Source: a virus. From it: a stretch of 30,636 nucleotides of DNA. The stretch covers positions 1-30,636 of the IMG/VR virus record IMGVR_UViG_3300020159_003798, one strand, 5' to 3'. The notes beneath the pieces were generated by a model, which was not told where the DNA came from, made no database searches, and saw only the letters and a program-made list of their open reading frames with translations. The first letter of the stretch is position 1; each line of letters begins with the position of its first letter. The position numbers and the translations under genes are program-made. Positions 23,241 to 30,636 of this stretch are shown here, piece by piece.

Positions 23241-24527
23241 ATGGCCACAAATAATATGCAAGGACCTTTAAGTCGTCTAGCCAATAATAATATGGTTTTA
23301 CCGGCACGTATGCAGGTTGCTAACGATTTAGCAACATCTGAAATGACTTCGGCTCCTATGGTTAATTCAGCACAGCTACAAAGTGAACTTGAAATTCGAG
23401 CTCAACAAATTGCGAGTGAAATGATCAAAGCCCAGGCAATGCAATCTCAAATTGCAGCTTCGGGTCGAGTATTTACAAGATTTGATGTCGCTTCTGATGT
23501 TATCGAAAATCAAAAGACTTATGTGACAACAGGATTATTTTCAGGTAACGCGTCTTCATTGACAGCAATGTATACTAGCTCACTTCAGTCTAGCGGATCA
23601 AAACAATACTATTACGAAGTTTGGAATGGAACAAGCTCAACTTCAGAAGCACAATTTTCAGTAGCATGGGGTCATAAATATGGTTCAGGTTCTTCAACAG
23701 CGGGTACATTAAACGACTCTCCTACTAAAGCAATATATTCTCAGTATAAATCATTGTTATTAGAACCAGGGGACACGACATTTACATTTGCAGACGGAAA
23801 CTCTCCACCACAGATTTATGCTATTAATTTTAATAGAGCTCGAATCAAAGATAAATTAGATCCAGGAAATTGGCAATTATCATTAGGACAATTATCAGGT
23901 TCATCAGTGGCAAATAACGTACATACTGGCTCAAACGTTAAATTAGCAAATAATCCAGGAGTTATTTCATTAATCGATGATTCTGGACAAAGTCAAGCAG
24001 TTAATTTAACAACATCAGGTCGTGTATTTAATGTTGTATCTGGATCAATCTCCGGAGGAATTTATAATCCTTTATCTCCTTTTTATTTCGGATTAGTTTA
24101 TCCTGATATGGGTATCATTATATTAAATGGAGAATCGCTAGATGCAATTCCTTCATTTAATGCTGTAACAGGATCAAATATTGCAGGTGACAATGCTTGG
24201 AAATTATACACTTCAATATCCGGTGCAATGTCAATTAGTCCGACAAATAACGCATTTCAAGCTAGAAATGAAGAAACCATAACTTCAACTCATTATTTTG
24301 TAAGAATTAAAAATGGAGAATATAACTTCTCAAATAATCCTTCATTTACAACGGGTTCTGTAGGCGAATTTGCTCAACCAACATTTATCGGCGATCCTAA
24401 AACATATATCACAACAATTGGTATGTATAATGATCGTCAAGAATTGTTAGCAGTTGCAAAATTAAGCCAGCCAGTACAAAAATCATTTAGTAACGAATCT
24501 TTGATAAAGGTTAAGTTAGACTTCTAA
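23241..24527 (+). CDS. Tail/fibre structural protein, paralogue of the 24591 product
   Basis: The 428-aa protein has a Met/Ala/Gln-rich N-terminal helix (about 1-75), then beta-rich sequence (YYYEVWNG, SLLLEPGDTTF, VISLIDDSGQ). A C-terminal end YITTIGMYNDRQELLAVAKLSQPVQKS matches the end of the next gene's product (YITTVGLYNDAGQLLAVGKL). Short blocks in the middle also correspond, which suggests two related proteins, one with an inserted domain. No enzyme motif. It starts after a 32-base A-rich gap without an obvious promoter, so it probably shares the upstream transcript. Confidence 0.65.
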   Translation: MATNNMQGPLSRLANNNMVLPARMQVANDLATSEMTSAPMVNSAQLQSELEIRAQQIASEMIKAQAMQSQIAASGRVFTRFDVASDVIENQKTYVTTGLFSGNASSLTAMYTSSLQSSGSKQYYYEVWNGTSSTSEAQFSVAWGHKYGSGSSTAGTLNDSPTKAIYSQYKSLLLEPGDTTFTFADGNSPPQIYAINFNRARIKDKLDPGNWQLSLGQLSGSSVANNVHTGSNVKLANNPGVISLIDDSGQSQAVNLTTSGRVFNVVSGSISGGIYNPLSPFYFGLVYPDMGIIILNGESLDAIPSFNAVTGSNIAGDNAWKLYTSISGAMSISPTNNAFQARNEETITSTHYFVRIKNGEYNFSNNPSFTTGSVGEFAQPTFIGDPKTYITTIGMYNDRQELLAVAKLSQPVQKSFSNESLIKVKLDF

Positions 24528-24548
24528 TTTTAAAAATCAACCAATATT

Positions 24549-24580
24549 TAGGCTCTTTGATATTTATATTAAAGAGCCTA
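24549..24580 (+). promoter_or_regulatory. Late-promoter motif inside a hairpin loop
   Basis: A perfect 10-bp inverted repeat (TAGGCTCTTT at 24549-24558, AAAGAGCCTA at 24571-24580) frames the 12-base loop GATATTTATATT, which contains the ATATTTAT core (24560-24567). ATG follows at 24591. No T-run follows the stem, so it is not a typical intrinsic terminator. It may combine weak termination with promoter function, or be a protein-binding palindrome. Confidence 0.55.
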
Positions 24581-24590
24581 ACTACTATAT

Positions 24591-26372
24591 ATGGGAAAAG
24601 GAGTATTTAAAAGAATTAATGGACGAGATCAAACCATTACGCCATTCAAGGTTTATAAATCTTGGAGATACACTGATACAGGTAGTTTACAAAATGACGG
24701 AATTGACTTATTATACGCACTAAAACCTAATCCTGCAGTATATTCAGGAAATAAAGTAACGCTAGATACCTTGCAAACAAATTTAGATTCTAGTTCATTA
24801 ATGATTAATTCTGCAAATAATAAAGAAGCGGCAGTTATTTGGCACAGCTTAAATCATTTATATTATAAAAGAGCAGGTAAACCGTCTGAGACATTTGGAT
24901 ATGCAGATCCATATGCTATTAAACGAACTTTATTTAATGAAGCTATGGTTTATTCAATACCTCAAAGAAAATTCGGAGAATCAATTAAACCAGGCTCAGT
25001 TAAATTAAATTATAAAAATATATCATTAAATGCAACTTCAATGTCATTAATAGATGACGGAAAAGGAAATTTAATTAATACTGCTTTAAGTAGTTCTGTG
25101 TCTGGAGAAGTATTGCATTTAGGATTTGATATGATGACGTATTGCTCTAATTACGGTGCAAATTTCAACTTAAACACTTCGCAGCAAGTTGGTAATTTAA
25201 TTGACTTTCAAGTTGATTCAATTAATCCTAATTTAACCGCTCAAGGAAATGTATGGATTAATAACAGTACTGTAGTAGGAAACTATTATTCTTCATCTAT
25301 AGCTTCTGTATTTCCTTGGGGAAATGATGCATTCTTTACGACAGCATCTTATATTAGAATACCAAATGACGATTCATTTAACTTTAAACAAACAGATGAT
25401 TTTGCTTTATCATTTTGGATAGGAAAATATTCTAACGTTCCTGCAGTTCAGCAAATAATTTCAAAACGAACTACCGGAGTTGGTCAGTATATGCTTAAAA
25501 ACAAAGTTTATACTGGAGATATAAATTACAATGCTGGTCAATATCCATTTGACATTTATTTTCCTAGTGGTAGTGGAATTCCGGCAGGTACATTGTATTG
25601 TAAAAATTCCAATGGACCTGTAATTACTACGGTAAGTGGTACAATAGCCACTAACACTGAAAATCATGTAGTATTACAAAAAACAGGTTCTGTATTTCAG
25701 TTATATATTGGAGGAGTGTTAACCCAACAAACTACATTACCAACAGATGGAAATTTTTATAATAACGCTGATTTATTTATTGGCTCGTTAGGATTAAATT
25801 CTAATGGAAATGGATATAATTCATTTAAAGGAACTTTTGATGAATTTTTTATTTTTAATAAAGGATTAACTCAATCAGAAATTACTCAATTAGGATATAC
25901 AGGTTCATTTACAATGGTAACTAATACCAATGTAGTTGGAAATGTATTTTATGAGCATGGATTAATTGTAATTTCAGATCCAAGACCAGATTATATATCA
26001 TCAGGATCTATTAATACATTTAATAACTTTATTTACGATAAAAATACAAAAATTGTACCTACAAGCTATTTTGATAATACAAAATTCAAATTAGAATATA
26101 ATTCAACTGTAACTCTTTATGAACATGAATATATTTGTAAATTAAAAGAAGATGAATTTAATTTTACGTCAAATCCGACAATTAGATTGAATAATGACGT
26201 AAATTCACAAATACCAAAAGATATTGTTTCAAACGATTCATTCGCTCCATATATAACGACAGTTGGATTGTATAATGATGCTGGTCAATTATTAGCAGTA
26301 GGAAAGTTAGGAACACCAATTCGAAAACGAGATAATGTTGATACTAGCATTATTATTCGTTTTGATATTTAA
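24591..26372 (+). CDS. Tail/fibre protein with LamG (concanavalin-like) domain
   Basis: The 593-aa protein has a backbone related to the preceding product, including the C-terminal YITTVGLYNDAGQLLAVGKL block. A LamG-like sandwich is inserted at about residues 245-440: SYIRIPNDDSFNFKQTDDF, then FALSFWIG, TENHVVLQKT, VFQLYIGGV and FKGTFDEFFIFNKGLT. LamG domains bind glycans or proteins, so surface recognition is a fair inference. N-terminal region about 1-200 includes the phage pattern VYSIPQRKFGESIKPGSVKLNY. It has its own late-promoter hairpin and ends 16 bases before the endonuclease I gene. Confidence 0.75.
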   Translation: MGKGVFKRINGRDQTITPFKVYKSWRYTDTGSLQNDGIDLLYALKPNPAVYSGNKVTLDTLQTNLDSSSLMINSANNKEAAVIWHSLNHLYYKRAGKPSETFGYADPYAIKRTLFNEAMVYSIPQRKFGESIKPGSVKLNYKNISLNATSMSLIDDGKGNLINTALSSSVSGEVLHLGFDMMTYCSNYGANFNLNTSQQVGNLIDFQVDSINPNLTAQGNVWINNSTVVGNYYSSSIASVFPWGNDAFFTTASYIRIPNDDSFNFKQTDDFALSFWIGKYSNVPAVQQIISKRTTGVGQYMLKNKVYTGDINYNAGQYPFDIYFPSGSGIPAGTLYCKNSNGPVITTVSGTIATNTENHVVLQKTGSVFQLYIGGVLTQQTTLPTDGNFYNNADLFIGSLGLNSNGNGYNSFKGTFDEFFIFNKGLTQSEITQLGYTGSFTMVTNTNVVGNVFYEHGLIVISDPRPDYISSGSINTFNNFIYDKNTKIVPTSYFDNTKFKLEYNSTVTLYEHEYICKLKEDEFNFTSNPTIRLNNDVNSQIPKDIVSNDSFAPYITTVGLYNDAGQLLAVGKLGTPIRKRDNVDTSIIIRFDI

Positions 26373-26388
26373 AAAATAAAATATAGTT

Positions 26389-26793
26389 ATGGCAAGAAAA
26401 AATCCATATAGTAAAAAAGCTGTCGCAGCTAAGTACGGCTTTCGTAGTGGTTTAGAAATGGATATTGATGCATCTCTTAAAGATCAAGGAATTGATGGAG
26501 AGTATGAACAGCATATCATTGAATACGTTAAACCAGAAACCAAGCACAAATATCATCCAGACTTTAAACTTCCAAATGGAATTTTTGTAGAAACTAAGGG
26601 AAGATTCTTGGTAGATGACAGAAAAAAACATATATTAATTAAAAAGCAATGTCCTGATTTAGATATTAGATTTTTATTTCAAAACTCAAAAACTAAAATT
26701 TCTAAAAGTTCAAAGACAACATACGCAGACTGGTGCATTAAACACGGCTTTCAATTTGCTGATAAGATAATTCCTGAAGATTGGTTAAAATAA
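26389..26793 (+). CDS. Endonuclease I, Holliday-junction resolvase (T7 gp3 family)
   Basis: T7 endonuclease I is a dimeric PD-(D/E)XK resolvase that cuts branched DNA. The 134-aa product follows the T7 enzyme almost throughout: FRSGLE with E23, HPD58F, LPNGIFVE68TK70G, DDRKKHILIKKQ, DIRFLFQNSKTK, YADWCIKHG and FADKIIPEDW. All four catalytic positions (E23, D58, E68, K70) are present. It lacks the basic C-terminal tail of T7 gp3. T4 uses an unrelated resolvase (gp49), so this is a functional replacement in a T4-like setting, beside other recombination genes. Confidence 0.95.
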   Translation: MARKNPYSKKAVAAKYGFRSGLEMDIDASLKDQGIDGEYEQHIIEYVKPETKHKYHPDFKLPNGIFVETKGRFLVDDRKKHILIKKQCPDLDIRFLFQNSKTKISKSSKTTYADWCIKHGFQFADKIIPEDWLK

Positions 26794-26794
26794 T

Positions 26795-26825
26795 TTTGAC
26801 AAATCAAAAGATTATCTTATATTTA
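26795..26825 (+). promoter_or_regulatory. Host-type promoter, TTTG-N19-TATATTTA, near-leaderless
   Basis: TTTG at 26795-26798, spacer of 19, TATATTTA at 26818-26825. Its last 19 bases lie in a 21-base block (26807-26827) identical to the ClpP promoter region (4513-4533), including the AAGAT-T-ATCTT palindrome. The ATG at 26832 is only six bases after the -7 element, so the mRNA would start at or very near the start codon. Confidence 0.65.
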
Positions 26826-26831
26826 ATGTAG

Positions 26832-27779
26832 ATGTTAGATACTAGATTAACACAATTAATAGAAAATGTACTAGGTAAAGGAAAAGTTACTAATAAAGGT
26901 AACATAGCACATCATTGTCCGTTTTGCCAAACTAAACAAAAGAAGCTAGAAGTGCAAATGATTACTAATGATAAAGGAGAAAATCCATGGCATTGTTGGG
27001 TATGTAATAAGTCAGGAAAAAAGCTAACTTCTTTGTTTAAAGCACTAAATGTAAGTCGTGATAAAATATCTGAACTTTACAAAGTACTTTCCATCCAGCC
27101 AAAATATAGTAATTCTCAGATCGACAGTACCTTTCAAAGTACGACGGCGGTAGACCTGCCTAAAGAGTATATTCCCTTGTTTAAAGTAACCGATTCTATT
27201 GAATATAAAAATGCTATTCATTATTTAAGAGCAAAGCGAAAGATAACACTTTCAGAAATTGTAAAATACAATATTGGATATTGCGAATCTGGAGAATATG
27301 CTAAAAAGATTATAATTCCTTCATATGACGAAACAGGTAAATTAAATTACTTTGTAGGAAGAGCATATTACGAAGCAGAATCATTTAAACATAAAAATCC
27401 TGATGTTTCTAAAAATTGTGTAGGATTTGAATTGTTTATAAATTGGGCACTTCCATTAGTTTTAGTAGAAGGATCGTTTGACGCGATTGCAGTTAGAAGA
27501 AATGCTATACCATTGTTTGGCAAAACGATATCTGAAGATTTGCGTAAGAAAATTATTGAAAATAAAGTTAGTCAGTTATATATTTGTTTAGATAAAGATG
27601 CACAAAAGCAAGCTCTAGAGCATGCAGAATATTTCATGAATAATGGAGTAGAAGTGTATTTTGTAGATTTAGAAGAAAAAGATCCTGCAGAAATAGGATT
27701 TGAAAAAATGTGTAAGTTAATTAAGGAAACTCAACCATTAACTTTCAGTAAATTTATTGAGTATAAATTATTTGGATAA
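26832..27779 (+). CDS. DNA primase (zinc finger plus Toprim)
   Basis: The 315-aa protein synthesises RNA primers for the lagging strand by analogy with DnaG and T4 gp61. An N-terminal zinc ribbon has C29-PF-C32 and C55-WV-C58 (HHCPFC, WHCWVC). A Toprim domain contains E213 (LVEGSFDAI) and D254-x-D256 (CLDKDA), the metal-binding acids. Between them, the stretch IIPSYDETGKLNYFVGR is typical of DnaG-type catalytic cores. No helicase domain is fused; the protein is shorter than bacterial DnaG, as for phage primases. It ends in TAATG, coupled to the Mre11-like gene. Its promoter gives almost no leader. Confidence 0.9.
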   Translation: MLDTRLTQLIENVLGKGKVTNKGNIAHHCPFCQTKQKKLEVQMITNDKGENPWHCWVCNKSGKKLTSLFKALNVSRDKISELYKVLSIQPKYSNSQIDSTFQSTTAVDLPKEYIPLFKVTDSIEYKNAIHYLRAKRKITLSEIVKYNIGYCESGEYAKKIIIPSYDETGKLNYFVGRAYYEAESFKHKNPDVSKNCVGFELFINWALPLVLVEGSFDAIAVRRNAIPLFGKTISEDLRKKIIENKVSQLYICLDKDAQKQALEHAEYFMNNGVEVYFVDLEEKDPAEIGFEKMCKLIKETQPLTFSKFIEYKLFG

Positions 27780-28471
27780 TGGAACAAATTAATATTGGAA
27801 TAGATACGATTAATAAAATATATCACATAGCAGATATTCATATTAGAAATTTAAAACGACATAAAGAGTATCAAACAGTATTTCAAAGAACAGTAGATGC
27901 AATTAAAAGAACAATTGAGCCAAATGATATCATCTTTTTAGGCGGAGATATCGTACATGCTAAAACAGATATGACACCTGAATTAGTACAGTCTGTTCAA
28001 GAATTCTTTAAAATGTTTTCTGATATAGCACCTACTATTTTAATTACAGGTAATCACGATTGCAACTTAAATAATAAATCTAGATTAGATGCATTAACGC
28101 CAATTGTCAATGCATTAAACCATCCAAATCTCCATTATCTCAAAGAGTCAGGAATATATCAATTAGCCGACAAACACTTTGTAGTTATGTCTGTTTTTGA
28201 TAAGCCTAAAGATTTTATAAAAGCAGATTCGTTTGAAGGCGATTTTAAGATTGCACTTCATCATGGAGCTGTAAATAATGCAATGACTGATATTGGGTTT
28301 AGGTTAGTAAATGATAATGTTGATATTGATACATTTGCGGGATATAAACTTACATTGTTAGGAGATATTCACAAACCTAACCAAACTTTACAAGAATATT
28401 CATATGAAGAATTAGAAATTGATGAAATTGATTTAGACAGATATTTGAAAGAAGGCTGGGAATGTATGTAA
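27779..28471 (+). CDS. 47: Mre11/SbcD-type nuclease domain, C-terminally split (gp47-like)
   Basis: The 230-aa protein has all five calcineurin-like phosphoesterase motifs: D19-I-H21, G-G-D57 (LGGDIVH), G91-N-H-D94, H161-H162 and G195-D196-I-H198. These identify the Mn-dependent nuclease of the Mre11/SbcD/gp47 family, which processes DNA ends with Rad50. Homology to Mre11 stops near residue 207, right after motif V. The expected cap domain is absent and instead encoded at 28807. Residues 208-230 (YEELEIDEIDLDRYLKEGW) are an acidic, helix-like tail, net charge about -7, resembling linkers seen beside phage homing-endonuclease domains. Start is TAATG-coupled to the primase. Confidence 0.88.
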   Translation: MEQINIGIDTINKIYHIADIHIRNLKRHKEYQTVFQRTVDAIKRTIEPNDIIFLGGDIVHAKTDMTPELVQSVQEFFKMFSDIAPTILITGNHDCNLNNKSRLDALTPIVNALNHPNLHYLKESGIYQLADKHFVVMSVFDKPKDFIKADSFEGDFKIALHHGAVNNAMTDIGFRLVNDNVDIDTFAGYKLTLLGDIHKPNQTLQEYSYEELEIDEIDLDRYLKEGWECM

Positions 28472-28477
28472 TTTTAA

Positions 28478-28789
28478 AAGTTACGACAGCTAAAAAAATC
28501 AAAACCTGAAATAGACGCAGAAAAGCTATTAACCGAATTAAATACAGACTTCATTTATCAATATAAATTTAAAAATAGATATTTTGATTTTGGAATAGAG
28601 TCTAAAAAAATATTAATAGAAATAGATGGTGATTATTGGCATTCAAAAGGCATATTATATGAAAATATGAACGAACAGCAACGTACTACATTTCGTAATG
28701 ATAGATATAAAGATGATTTAGTACGTAATTCAGATTGGAAATTGATACGAATTTGGGCGTCTGACTTAGAAAAATATAGACATAAATAA
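28478..28789 (+). pseudogene. Vsr-like (EDxHD-type) homing endonuclease, start lost
   Basis: This open frame of 103 codons lies between two parts of one recombination gene. It encodes a Vsr-fold nuclease: EIDAEKLLTELNTDFIYQYKF, then RYFDFGI, KKILIEIDGDYWHSKG, FRNDRYKDDLV and WKLIRIWASDLEK. This is the arrangement of Vsr and I-Bth0305I-like homing enzymes. It is in frame with the Mre11-like gene upstream but separated by TAA at 28469-28471 and 28475-28477. No ATG, GTG or TTG occurs before the catalytic strands; the first ATG is at about codon 60. It therefore looks like a decayed insert, or one started at a non-standard codon. Flanking non-coding sequence is too short for a group I intron core. 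Confidence 0.75.
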
Positions 28790-28806
28790 GTTACAAAATA
28801 TATTAT

Positions 28807-30636
28807 ATGAACAAAAAAATACGAATTAAACGAGTAAAGCCGGGTATAAAATATGTTGGAAGTCTTATTCAACAAAACTATGCCGAGGCATTGGAGCATG
28901 GAATGTTAGTATGGGATACAAAAATCTGTCAAGCAGAATTTGTAAAAATTGAAAATGATATTTGTTATTATACTTTGGAAATTGATAATAAGAAATATAC
29001 GCCAATTCCAAAGTCTTTAGAAGATAAAACGATTCGTCTCCGAATTAAAGTACAAAATACAGAGCCAGCAGACTTAAAAGCAATTATTGCAAAGGTTAAA
29101 ACTAAATTTAATATTGAAGAATTTACGATTCAAAAGATCAATGATTTTTCAGTTAATAAAAATAGAGTACAAAAAATTAATATCGGAGATGTTCGTGATG
29201 TTGAATATCAAAATGAATTAATTTCGAAGTACTTAGAAAATAAATTTGCACTAGATGATGTGATATTAGATGGAGTTCGTCATGTAAATAGAACCGTAAA
29301 TTCTGGATTGCCTAATTTAGAAGTAAATCGAAATGTATCTTGGATTCCTAAACGATTTGAATTTTCAAATATGTTTAGTTATGGTATAGACAACGTAATT
29401 GACTTTACAAATATGAAAGGAGTGTATGGAATATTTGCTCCAAACGCTTCTGGAAAGTCGACTATGTTAGATGCAATTACATATTGTATATTTGACAAAT
29501 GCGGTCGAACTTCAAAGGCAGCGAGTGTAATGAACAATAAATCAAATTCATTCAAATGTACATTTAATTTTGAATTGGATGGAAGAAATTATTTTATTGA
29601 AAAGACAGGTACTAAAGGAAGAGGAAATCACGTAAGAGTAGATGTTAATTTCTATTCAATAGATGATTTAGGAAATAAAGAATCATTAAATGGAAAAGAA
29701 CGTAGCGAGACTAATGATCACATTAGACAATTATTAGGCACGTATGAAGATTTTGTGCTAACAGCATTGTCAGTTCAAAATAACAATTCTGGATTTATTG
29801 ACATGGCTCAAAAAGATCGTAAAGATTTATTAGCTCAATTTTTAGATATTAATATATTTGAGGACTTGTATAGAATTGCAAATGACGATATTAAAGAAGT
29901 AGCTACTTTAGTTAAAGAATATCAGAGACAAGATTTTGGAACTCAATTAGCACAAGCAATTAATGACATTGATACATACTCTAAAGAACATAAAGATTAT
30001 CAAATTGATAAAGCAGAATTAGAATTAAAAATTGAAGAGTTAAATCAAAAGATTTTATCATTGACTTCAGATTTAGTTCCGATAGATGCTTCAATTGAAA
30101 ATATAGATTCATTAACTGAATTAAAATCTAAAGTAGAAAAATTAGTAATTGATTTAAGCATTAATGCTGTCGACAAAACAGAAGAATTATCTAATGTTGA
30201 AATTAAAATTACAGAATTAAATTTGCAATTAACTAAATTTAATATTTCAGAAATTCAAGCTCGTATAGATGTTTTAGAAGATATTAAGACTACTGAAAAA
30301 ACTTTAGTAGGTCATGTAGAAAGACTCAAAGCGGAAGTTCGTCATAAGCTAGAAAAAATGGAAAAGCTAAATGATTTAGAATATGATGAAAATTGTAAAT
30401 TCTGTATGGACAACGTTTTTGTTAAAGACGCTATTGCTACTAAAGCTTCGATAGAACATGATAAATCAGAAGCTCAAGAGTTAGTAAATAAATTAGATGT
30501 AGTTAAGAAAAAAATTGAAGAGTTAATTCCTTCTGTGCAAGAAAAAGAAGAGTATAACAAGCTGCAAAAAGAAATTCATCAAAATGAATCTGTTAAATCT
30601 TCTATTGAATCTGCATTACATCAAATAGATTCTAAA
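28807..30636 (+). CDS. 46: Mre11 cap domain fused to Rad50/SbcC ATPase (gp46-like), 3' partial
   Basis: The ATG at 28807 opens a frame that runs off the window (610 codons seen). Residues 12-37 (KPGIKYVGSLIQQN, then HGMLVWD) are the conserved start of the Mre11 cap domain. Mre11-like sequence continues to about 170. From about 178 the protein is Rad50: FEFSNMFSYG, a Walker A A211-PNAS-G216-K217-S218 (Ala for the usual first Gly), LDAITYCIFDK, and a Q-loop region ALSVQNNNSGF. Long coiled coils follow, with the zinc hook C530-KF-C533. The C-terminal ATPase lobe lies beyond the window. The start MNKKIRIKRVK is strongly basic (net about +6). Leader A/T-rich, no Shine-Dalgarno. The missing Mre11 catalytic part is encoded at 27779. 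Confidence 0.88.
   Translation, partial: MNKKIRIKRVKPGIKYVGSLIQQNYAEALEHGMLVWDTKICQAEFVKIENDICYYTLEIDNKKYTPIPKSLEDKTIRLRIKVQNTEPADLKAIIAKVKTKFNIEEFTIQKINDFSVNKNRVQKINIGDVRDVEYQNELISKYLENKFALDDVILDGVRHVNRTVNSGLPNLEVNRNVSWIPKRFEFSNMFSYGIDNVIDFTNMKGVYGIFAPNASGKSTMLDAITYCIFDKCGRTSKAASVMNNKSNSFKCTFNFELDGRNYFIEKTGTKGRGNHVRVDVNFYSIDDLGNKESLNGKERSETNDHIRQLLGTYEDFVLTALSVQNNNSGFIDMAQKDRKDLLAQFLDINIFEDLYRIANDDIKEVATLVKEYQRQDFGTQLAQAINDIDTYSKEHKDYQIDKAELELKIEELNQKILSLTSDLVPIDASIENIDSLTELKSKVEKLVIDLSINAVDKTEELSNVEIKITELNLQLTKFNISEIQARIDVLEDIKTTEKTLVGHVERLKAEVRHKLEKMEKLNDLEYDENCKFCMDNVFVKDAIATKASIEHDKSEAQELVNKLDVVKKKIEELIPSVQEKEEYNKLQKEIHQNESVKSSIESALHQIDSK

Follow-up and report, generated by a model that had tools for sequence, protein, structure and literature searches.

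The split SbcD-SbcC gene of the window

The window, by which we mean the whole stretch of DNA that was analyzed, spans 30,636 bp and is a virus record in IMG/VR that consists of a single metagenomic contig. It contains a phage SbcD-SbcC (Mre11-Rad50) fusion gene that is split in two, with the following features (loci in other contigs are designated by L numbers):

27779..28471, + strand: N-half of SbcD-SbcC, 230 codons, with phosphoesterase motifs I-V and the acidic tail
28361..28384, + strand: motif V (GDIHKPNQ), the final stretch in common with intact short-loop relatives
28391..28866, + strand: inserted segment, 476 bp where the intact relative L005 has 36 bp (limits from blastn block ends)
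28400..28468, + strand: acidic C-terminal tail SYEELEIDEIDLDRYLKEGWECM on the N-half, 23 residues, net charge -7, with TAA next
28462..28509, + strand: short overlapping ORF (MYVILKVTTAKKIKT, then stop), which would need an A7 run (28492-28498) one base shorter to reach the nuclease frame
28478..28789, + strand: homing endonuclease remnant, Vsr-like domain frame, 103 codons, no start codon, ~144 N-terminal residues deleted
28807..28851, + strand: basic head MNKKIRIKRVKPGIK on the C-half, 15 residues, net charge +7
28807..30636, + strand: C-half, 610 codons up to the window end, with the remaining Mre11 domain and the Rad50 ATPase N-lobe

In profile searches the N-half ORF (27779-28471) matched Metallophos (E 9e-11) and the SbcD-like phrog_100 (E 6e-13), and the C-half ORF from 28807 matched AAA_23 (E 3e-17) and the SbcC-like phrog_77 (E 1e-34). 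The phosphoesterase residues DIHIR, GDIVH, GNHD, HHG, and GDIH are all retained in the N-half, and Mre11 structures were the top Foldseek matches for a predicted relative (3tho, E 9e-13). These motifs, the Rad50-type ATPase and the Mre11 fold place the gene among Mre11/SbcD-Rad50/SbcC, the assignment made in the original prediction. A T7 endonuclease I-like gene (26389-26793; Phage_endo_I, E 2e-58) is followed in the window by a DnaG-like primase gene (26832-27779), and a primase-like gene is also located upstream of the split gene in several relatives (e.g., L030, L062, L065, and L168).

Intact relatives and the point of insertion

An HMM search of ORFs found the gene to be intact in 134 of 166 loci, with loci on the same contig counted more than once. 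The nearest intact relative of the window, L005, shares 95% protein identity with it and has the phosphoesterase and ATPase domains on a single chain of 1052 residues. Comparison of the two by blastn gave blocks at 23442-28390 (84.6%) and 28867-30636 (85.6%), which map the insertion point, as homology to intact genes ends at 28390, just past GDIHKPNQ, and restarts at 28867 within YVGSLIQQN (28852-28878). A break and a resumption at these two motifs had been proposed from the window's letters, and this is correct relative to genes with the short loop of intact genes (GDIHKPNQYLDEAKTIAYPGSLIQQN). The proposed insert of ~430 bases with short flanks is also real, but it is wider than was thought and includes both the 23-residue tail and the 15-residue head. 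Two intact genes, L138 and L153, have a loop of intermediate length (TLQTYHVAEGVKKPLIKYPGS in L153) that is similar to both flanks of the split junction; these loops may be empty donor-type sites or cleaned re-fusions.

The nuclease frame in the window is a remnant

The frame between the two halves has the catalytic domain sequence of a Vsr-like (EDxHD-type) homing endonuclease, with matches to REase_MTES_1575 (E 3e-7) and Vsr (E 0.004) that are both below the curated Pfam cut-offs and a match to phrog_559 (E 2e-13). Other phages have full-length endonucleases at this site, and the frame is 46-49% identical to the final ~100 residues of these; it aligns solely to residues 145-244 of the full 248-residue enzymes of L072 and L074. 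We consider the frame to be a truncated remnant, as it lacks a start codon, comes after TAA TTT TAA read in the frame of the N-half, and has lost its first ~144 residues. The original prediction that a homing endonuclease splits the gene just after motif V stands with regard to origin and position, but the copy in the window is N-terminally deleted; intact endonucleases are present in L072, L074, L082, L172, L168, and L078. Relative to the phage homing endonucleases of PHROG 559, 9084, and 3339, the remnant represents the Vsr-like C-terminal domain and has neither the N-terminal, DNA-binding part nor a start codon. The ATG at 28462 of the short overlapping ORF, combined with slippage on the A7 run, is unlikely to be the nuclease start, as among the other split loci only L015 has that ATG, and such a start would also leave the DNA-binding part of the nuclease absent.

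Other split loci and anatomy of the element

Besides the window, approximately 13 further distinct split loci were identified in public viral contigs from independent metagenomes (~14 in total). Full Vsr-like endonucleases lie between the gene halves in L072, the L074 group, the L082 group, and L172, while L078 has an HNH-type endonuclease (DHIIPI motif and family match) and a TnsA-like PD-(D/E)xK domain is complete in L168 and a remnant in L062 (Pfam TnsA-like, E 2e-6). L168 corresponds to positions 122547-124771 of LR756508.1, a public 484-kb huge-phage record without annotation.

The endonuclease is a remnant in five loci (the window, L015, L062, L065, and L169), in all of which it is N-terminally truncated and the part that survives is the 3′ end adjoining the C-half start. 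That this end was kept in five of five remnants suggests that the translation signals of the C-half lie there. In four of the five the nuclease frame is that of the N-half, behind at least one stop codon (chance ~0.05):

window, 28469-28789
L065
L015
L062

L030 has no nuclease, and its N-half stop and C-half ATG are separated by 2 nt.

At four loci an RNA hairpin was found in the stretch that leads from the N-half stop to the endonuclease start:

L072, 4079-4139: strong (z -5.5), spanning the AUG
L078, 4082-4161: strong (z -5.7)
L074, 3050-3114: weaker
L082, 1258-1322: weaker

The hairpin sequences differ between the Vsr-like and HNH-type elements, and it is possible that the hairpins exert translational control on the endonuclease.

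Acidic tails and basic heads

Every split N-half (14 loci) ends in the motif E.E.DE..L..YLK.GWE, within a tail usually 23-25 residues in length (exceptions being L069, with 21 residues visible at a contig end, and L168, in which it is longer), and every C-half with a readable start among the split loci opens with M.KKI...KKP. In the loci for which it was computed, net charge was -4 to -10 for the tails and +5 to +7 for the heads. Both halves have extra sequence that is missing from unsplit homologues, with the tail-type stretch not present in intact genes. The distant relatives of the L168 endonuclease are free-standing genes with no such tails. In metagenome 3300032237, two contigs, L011 and L069, are broken precisely where the gene is split: one finishes in the N-half tail and the other begins in the C-half head. 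They probably derive from a single phage whose endonuclease, lying in between, is variable or repeated.

In an AlphaFold2 model of the naturally fused protein of L002, the tail-like and head-like stretches are predicted, with modest confidence (pLDDT 62-73), to be paired strands (208-214 and 221-228); in the N-half modelled alone, the tail is merely a helix (216-224). A tblastn search of sequenced phages with a 38-residue tail query returned no relatives, as did a search of the phage collection with the insert DNA. Scans for other genes bearing the tail confirmed only SbcD N-halves, tblastn confirmation with so short a query being weak.

Phylogeny and mobility

A tree was built on the gene cores, with the loop left out. 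The split trait required 11 changes for its 13 split rows (12.5 with shuffled labels), the nearest row to the window was the intact L005, and a single clade of split rows was rejected (p-AU 8e-50), as was, on this test, one ancient split that was vertically inherited. Tail DNA was far more similar than core DNA between the window and L015 (96.4 vs. 78.1%, Fisher 1.3e-5) and between L068 and L069 (96.2 vs. 77.7%, Fisher 3e-5), with synonymous distances for these pairs of ~0.08 in the tails against ~2 in the cores; several more distant pairs had the same direction (tail above flank) at levels that were not significant. Identity in the head DNA of L072 and L074 drops with distance outward from 91 to 64%.

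This outward decay, together with the excess of tail over flank identity, is typical of a unit that is copied with short flanks, and since the split is scattered over the gene tree and tail DNA is so far above its flanks, the tails, endonuclease and head seem from these comparisons to move together as one unit, for which we infer homing. It is feasible that the scattered distribution arose through repeated loss by recombination, although the tail identity speaks for transfer, and the low divergence of the tails could in part be due to constraint on the DNA itself.

A probable re-fused lineage

In L002-L004, which come from three metagenomes, the gene is unsplit and remnants of both tail and head are kept in its loop (TLQEYSCEELVVNESKLTTKKIKHIKPAIKY). 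These genes have the sequence SICMLGDIH in common only with the split loci L068 and L069, as would be expected of a re-fused descendant. The simplest reading of these sequences is that L002-L004 represent a re-fusion in which the endonuclease was deleted and the frame restored; that they represent the state prior to insertion is less likely. A different route to a joined product may exist in L030 (3640-3662), where a slippery sequence, A_AAA_AAA_TAA, closes the N-half 2 nt ahead of the C-half ATG, and a -1 shift would join the halves, making a fused protein with both tails possible there.

Proposed mechanism and rival explanations

We think it likely that the window has a decayed mobile element inside a phage SbcD-SbcC fusion gene, with matched tails that let the split halves work together. 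A full element would comprise a new acidic end and stop codon for the upstream half-protein; a short leader, often with an RNA hairpin, and then the homing endonuclease; and, for the downstream half-protein, a start codon followed by the basic head. Intact alleles would be cleaved by the endonuclease just past motif V, and their repair would bring in the complete unit plus some of its immediate flanks, leaving a split gene that produces two proteins. If the model of L002 is a guide, the tail and the head would lengthen the two strands of a beta-hairpin located at the cut and would probably pair with each other, allowing the halves to fold into one working nuclease, non-covalently and in the absence of splicing. 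The opposite charges, the hairpin model and the dN/dS values given below speak indirectly for such an assembly. The endonuclease may later be lost by deletion, as appears to have happened in the window, whereas the split would remain because the halves still work, and on rare occasions the gene may re-fuse. By analogy, the best model is that the two proteins reassemble non-covalently like NrdA of phage Aeh1, but with portable tails. The original prediction of two polypeptides agrees with the lack of any sign of an intron or intein; it had overlooked the charged tails, the at least 13 other loci with three nuclease classes, the survival of the split beyond the endonuclease and the apparent re-fusion.

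The other readings (ALTERNATIVES: introns, inteins, gene death, recoding, and artefact) are less likely. That the insertion broke the gene and left two non-functional ORFs is in our estimation improbable, even though the endonuclease is itself decaying and the insertion in the window could be recent, given an intact relative with 95% identity in protein. Both halves remain open with whole catalytic motifs, the tail and head motifs are kept across lineages whose host proteins are ~40-50% identical, and the split lasts in at least six lineages after damage to or loss of the endonuclease. Core dN/dS between split loci is also well under 1. Across all comparisons, core values were 0.03-0.10 for the window and the intact L005 and 0.03-0.23 for the other computable pairs, with those for tails and heads mostly <1 but noisy due to their short length. 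As the window's own insertion may be recent, the low value for the window and L005 could mostly be older than the insertion in this genome; nevertheless, low core dN/dS in combination with intact phosphoesterase motifs argues that the split genes work. Production of a single protein via frameshifting, readthrough or ribosome bypassing over the insert is more doubtful still. The slippery end of the L030 N-half is in its favor, as is the continuation of the N-half frame by the window nuclease frame after TAA TTT TAA, but a distance of 106-843 nt with several stops separates the halves in the window, L015, L065, and the full-length elements, each half there has a start codon of its own, and recoding gives no reason for conserved tails and heads of opposite charge.

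Homing endonucleases are often carried in introns, and removal of the insert as a group I or II intron would yield one full-length protein. We give this almost no credence, since no Rfam intron match was obtained in the window (E up to 1) or in eight split loci (gathering thresholds) and in L030 the C-half ATG follows the N-half stop after only 2 nt; the original prediction had likewise found the space too small for a group I intron. Protein trans-splicing by a split intein is equally hard to credit. A Vsr-like family endonuclease reportedly lies between the two gene halves in fractured genes, but here the N-half carries only ~23 non-host residues and the C-half only ~15, far fewer than any intein has, these stretches have no Pfam match, and their junction residues are not conserved Cys/Ser/Thr nucleophiles. 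Finally, although the window is one metagenomic contig, an assembly artefact or chimera is a negligible prospect, as this type of junction is seen in ~14 loci from independent metagenomes and the huge-phage record LR756508.1, and the re-fused form is present in three metagenomes.

We lean, with less assurance than for the mobile element as a whole, toward the tails belonging to the element, as a portable non-covalent "dock" carried into each gene copy that it enters. If true, homing elements would have in the dock a third route, besides introns and inteins, to reside inside an essential-type gene without killing it, and the split would be a lasting gene architecture once the endonuclease is gone.

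Relationship to known genes-in-pieces

The kind of arrangement is already known, as genes-in-pieces created by homing endonucleases; what is new is tails that, judged by their sequences, look portable. The loci make up a natural series for a second gene of DNA metabolism (intact genes, full elements of three classes, remnants, splits that have no endonuclease, and a likely re-fusion) that is open to test by comparison and mutation and illustrates how selfish DNA may leave permanent gene fission. Short acidic/basic peptide pairs of this type may also serve as protein-reassembly tags. Our literature search, which covered subscription papers thinly, found no Mre11/SbcCD gene split by an endonuclease.

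The fractured genes of Dassa 2009 are reportedly similar in having gene halves around a free-standing endonuclease with a Vsr-like domain, but intein halves are not present here, the tails being too short and without splicing residues. Aeromonas phage Aeh1 is reported (Friedrich 2007, Crona 2011) to have the genes-in-pieces order NrdA-a / MobE / NrdA-b, and the original prediction chose the right comparison in its nrdA: in both cases a host gene that is continuous in relatives is split into two ORFs by a free-standing endonuclease gene, in an essential DNA-metabolism gene, and the two translated parts have extra tails.

The split nrdA of Aeh1 and the split genes of T4 and Aeromonas phages are among the subjects reviewed in PMC2988022, and the Aeh1 alpha subunits consist of two polypeptides (PMC3267527). 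According to the parts of the review consulted, the T4 topoisomerase genes 39/60 with mobA and the Aeromonas phage DNA polymerase genes 43A/43B are replication genes split at an endonuclease insertion whose two polypeptides assemble, and those parts describe no portable common tail pair for them (PMC2988022). The same source attributes to Aeh1 mobE a hairpin that sequesters the ribosome-binding site (Gibb and Edgell 2009, cited in PMC2988022), a likeness to the RNA hairpins ahead of the endonuclease start described above.

Aeh1 differs in its host gene and in being one locus with an intact HNH enzyme, whereas ~14 loci and three nuclease classes are represented here, and the tails seemingly travel along with the element and persist once the endonuclease is gone. 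The Aeh1 tails are also oppositely charged, with values computed here of +6 for the NrdA-a end and -10 for the NrdA-b start, an order of charges that is reversed relative to the window element.
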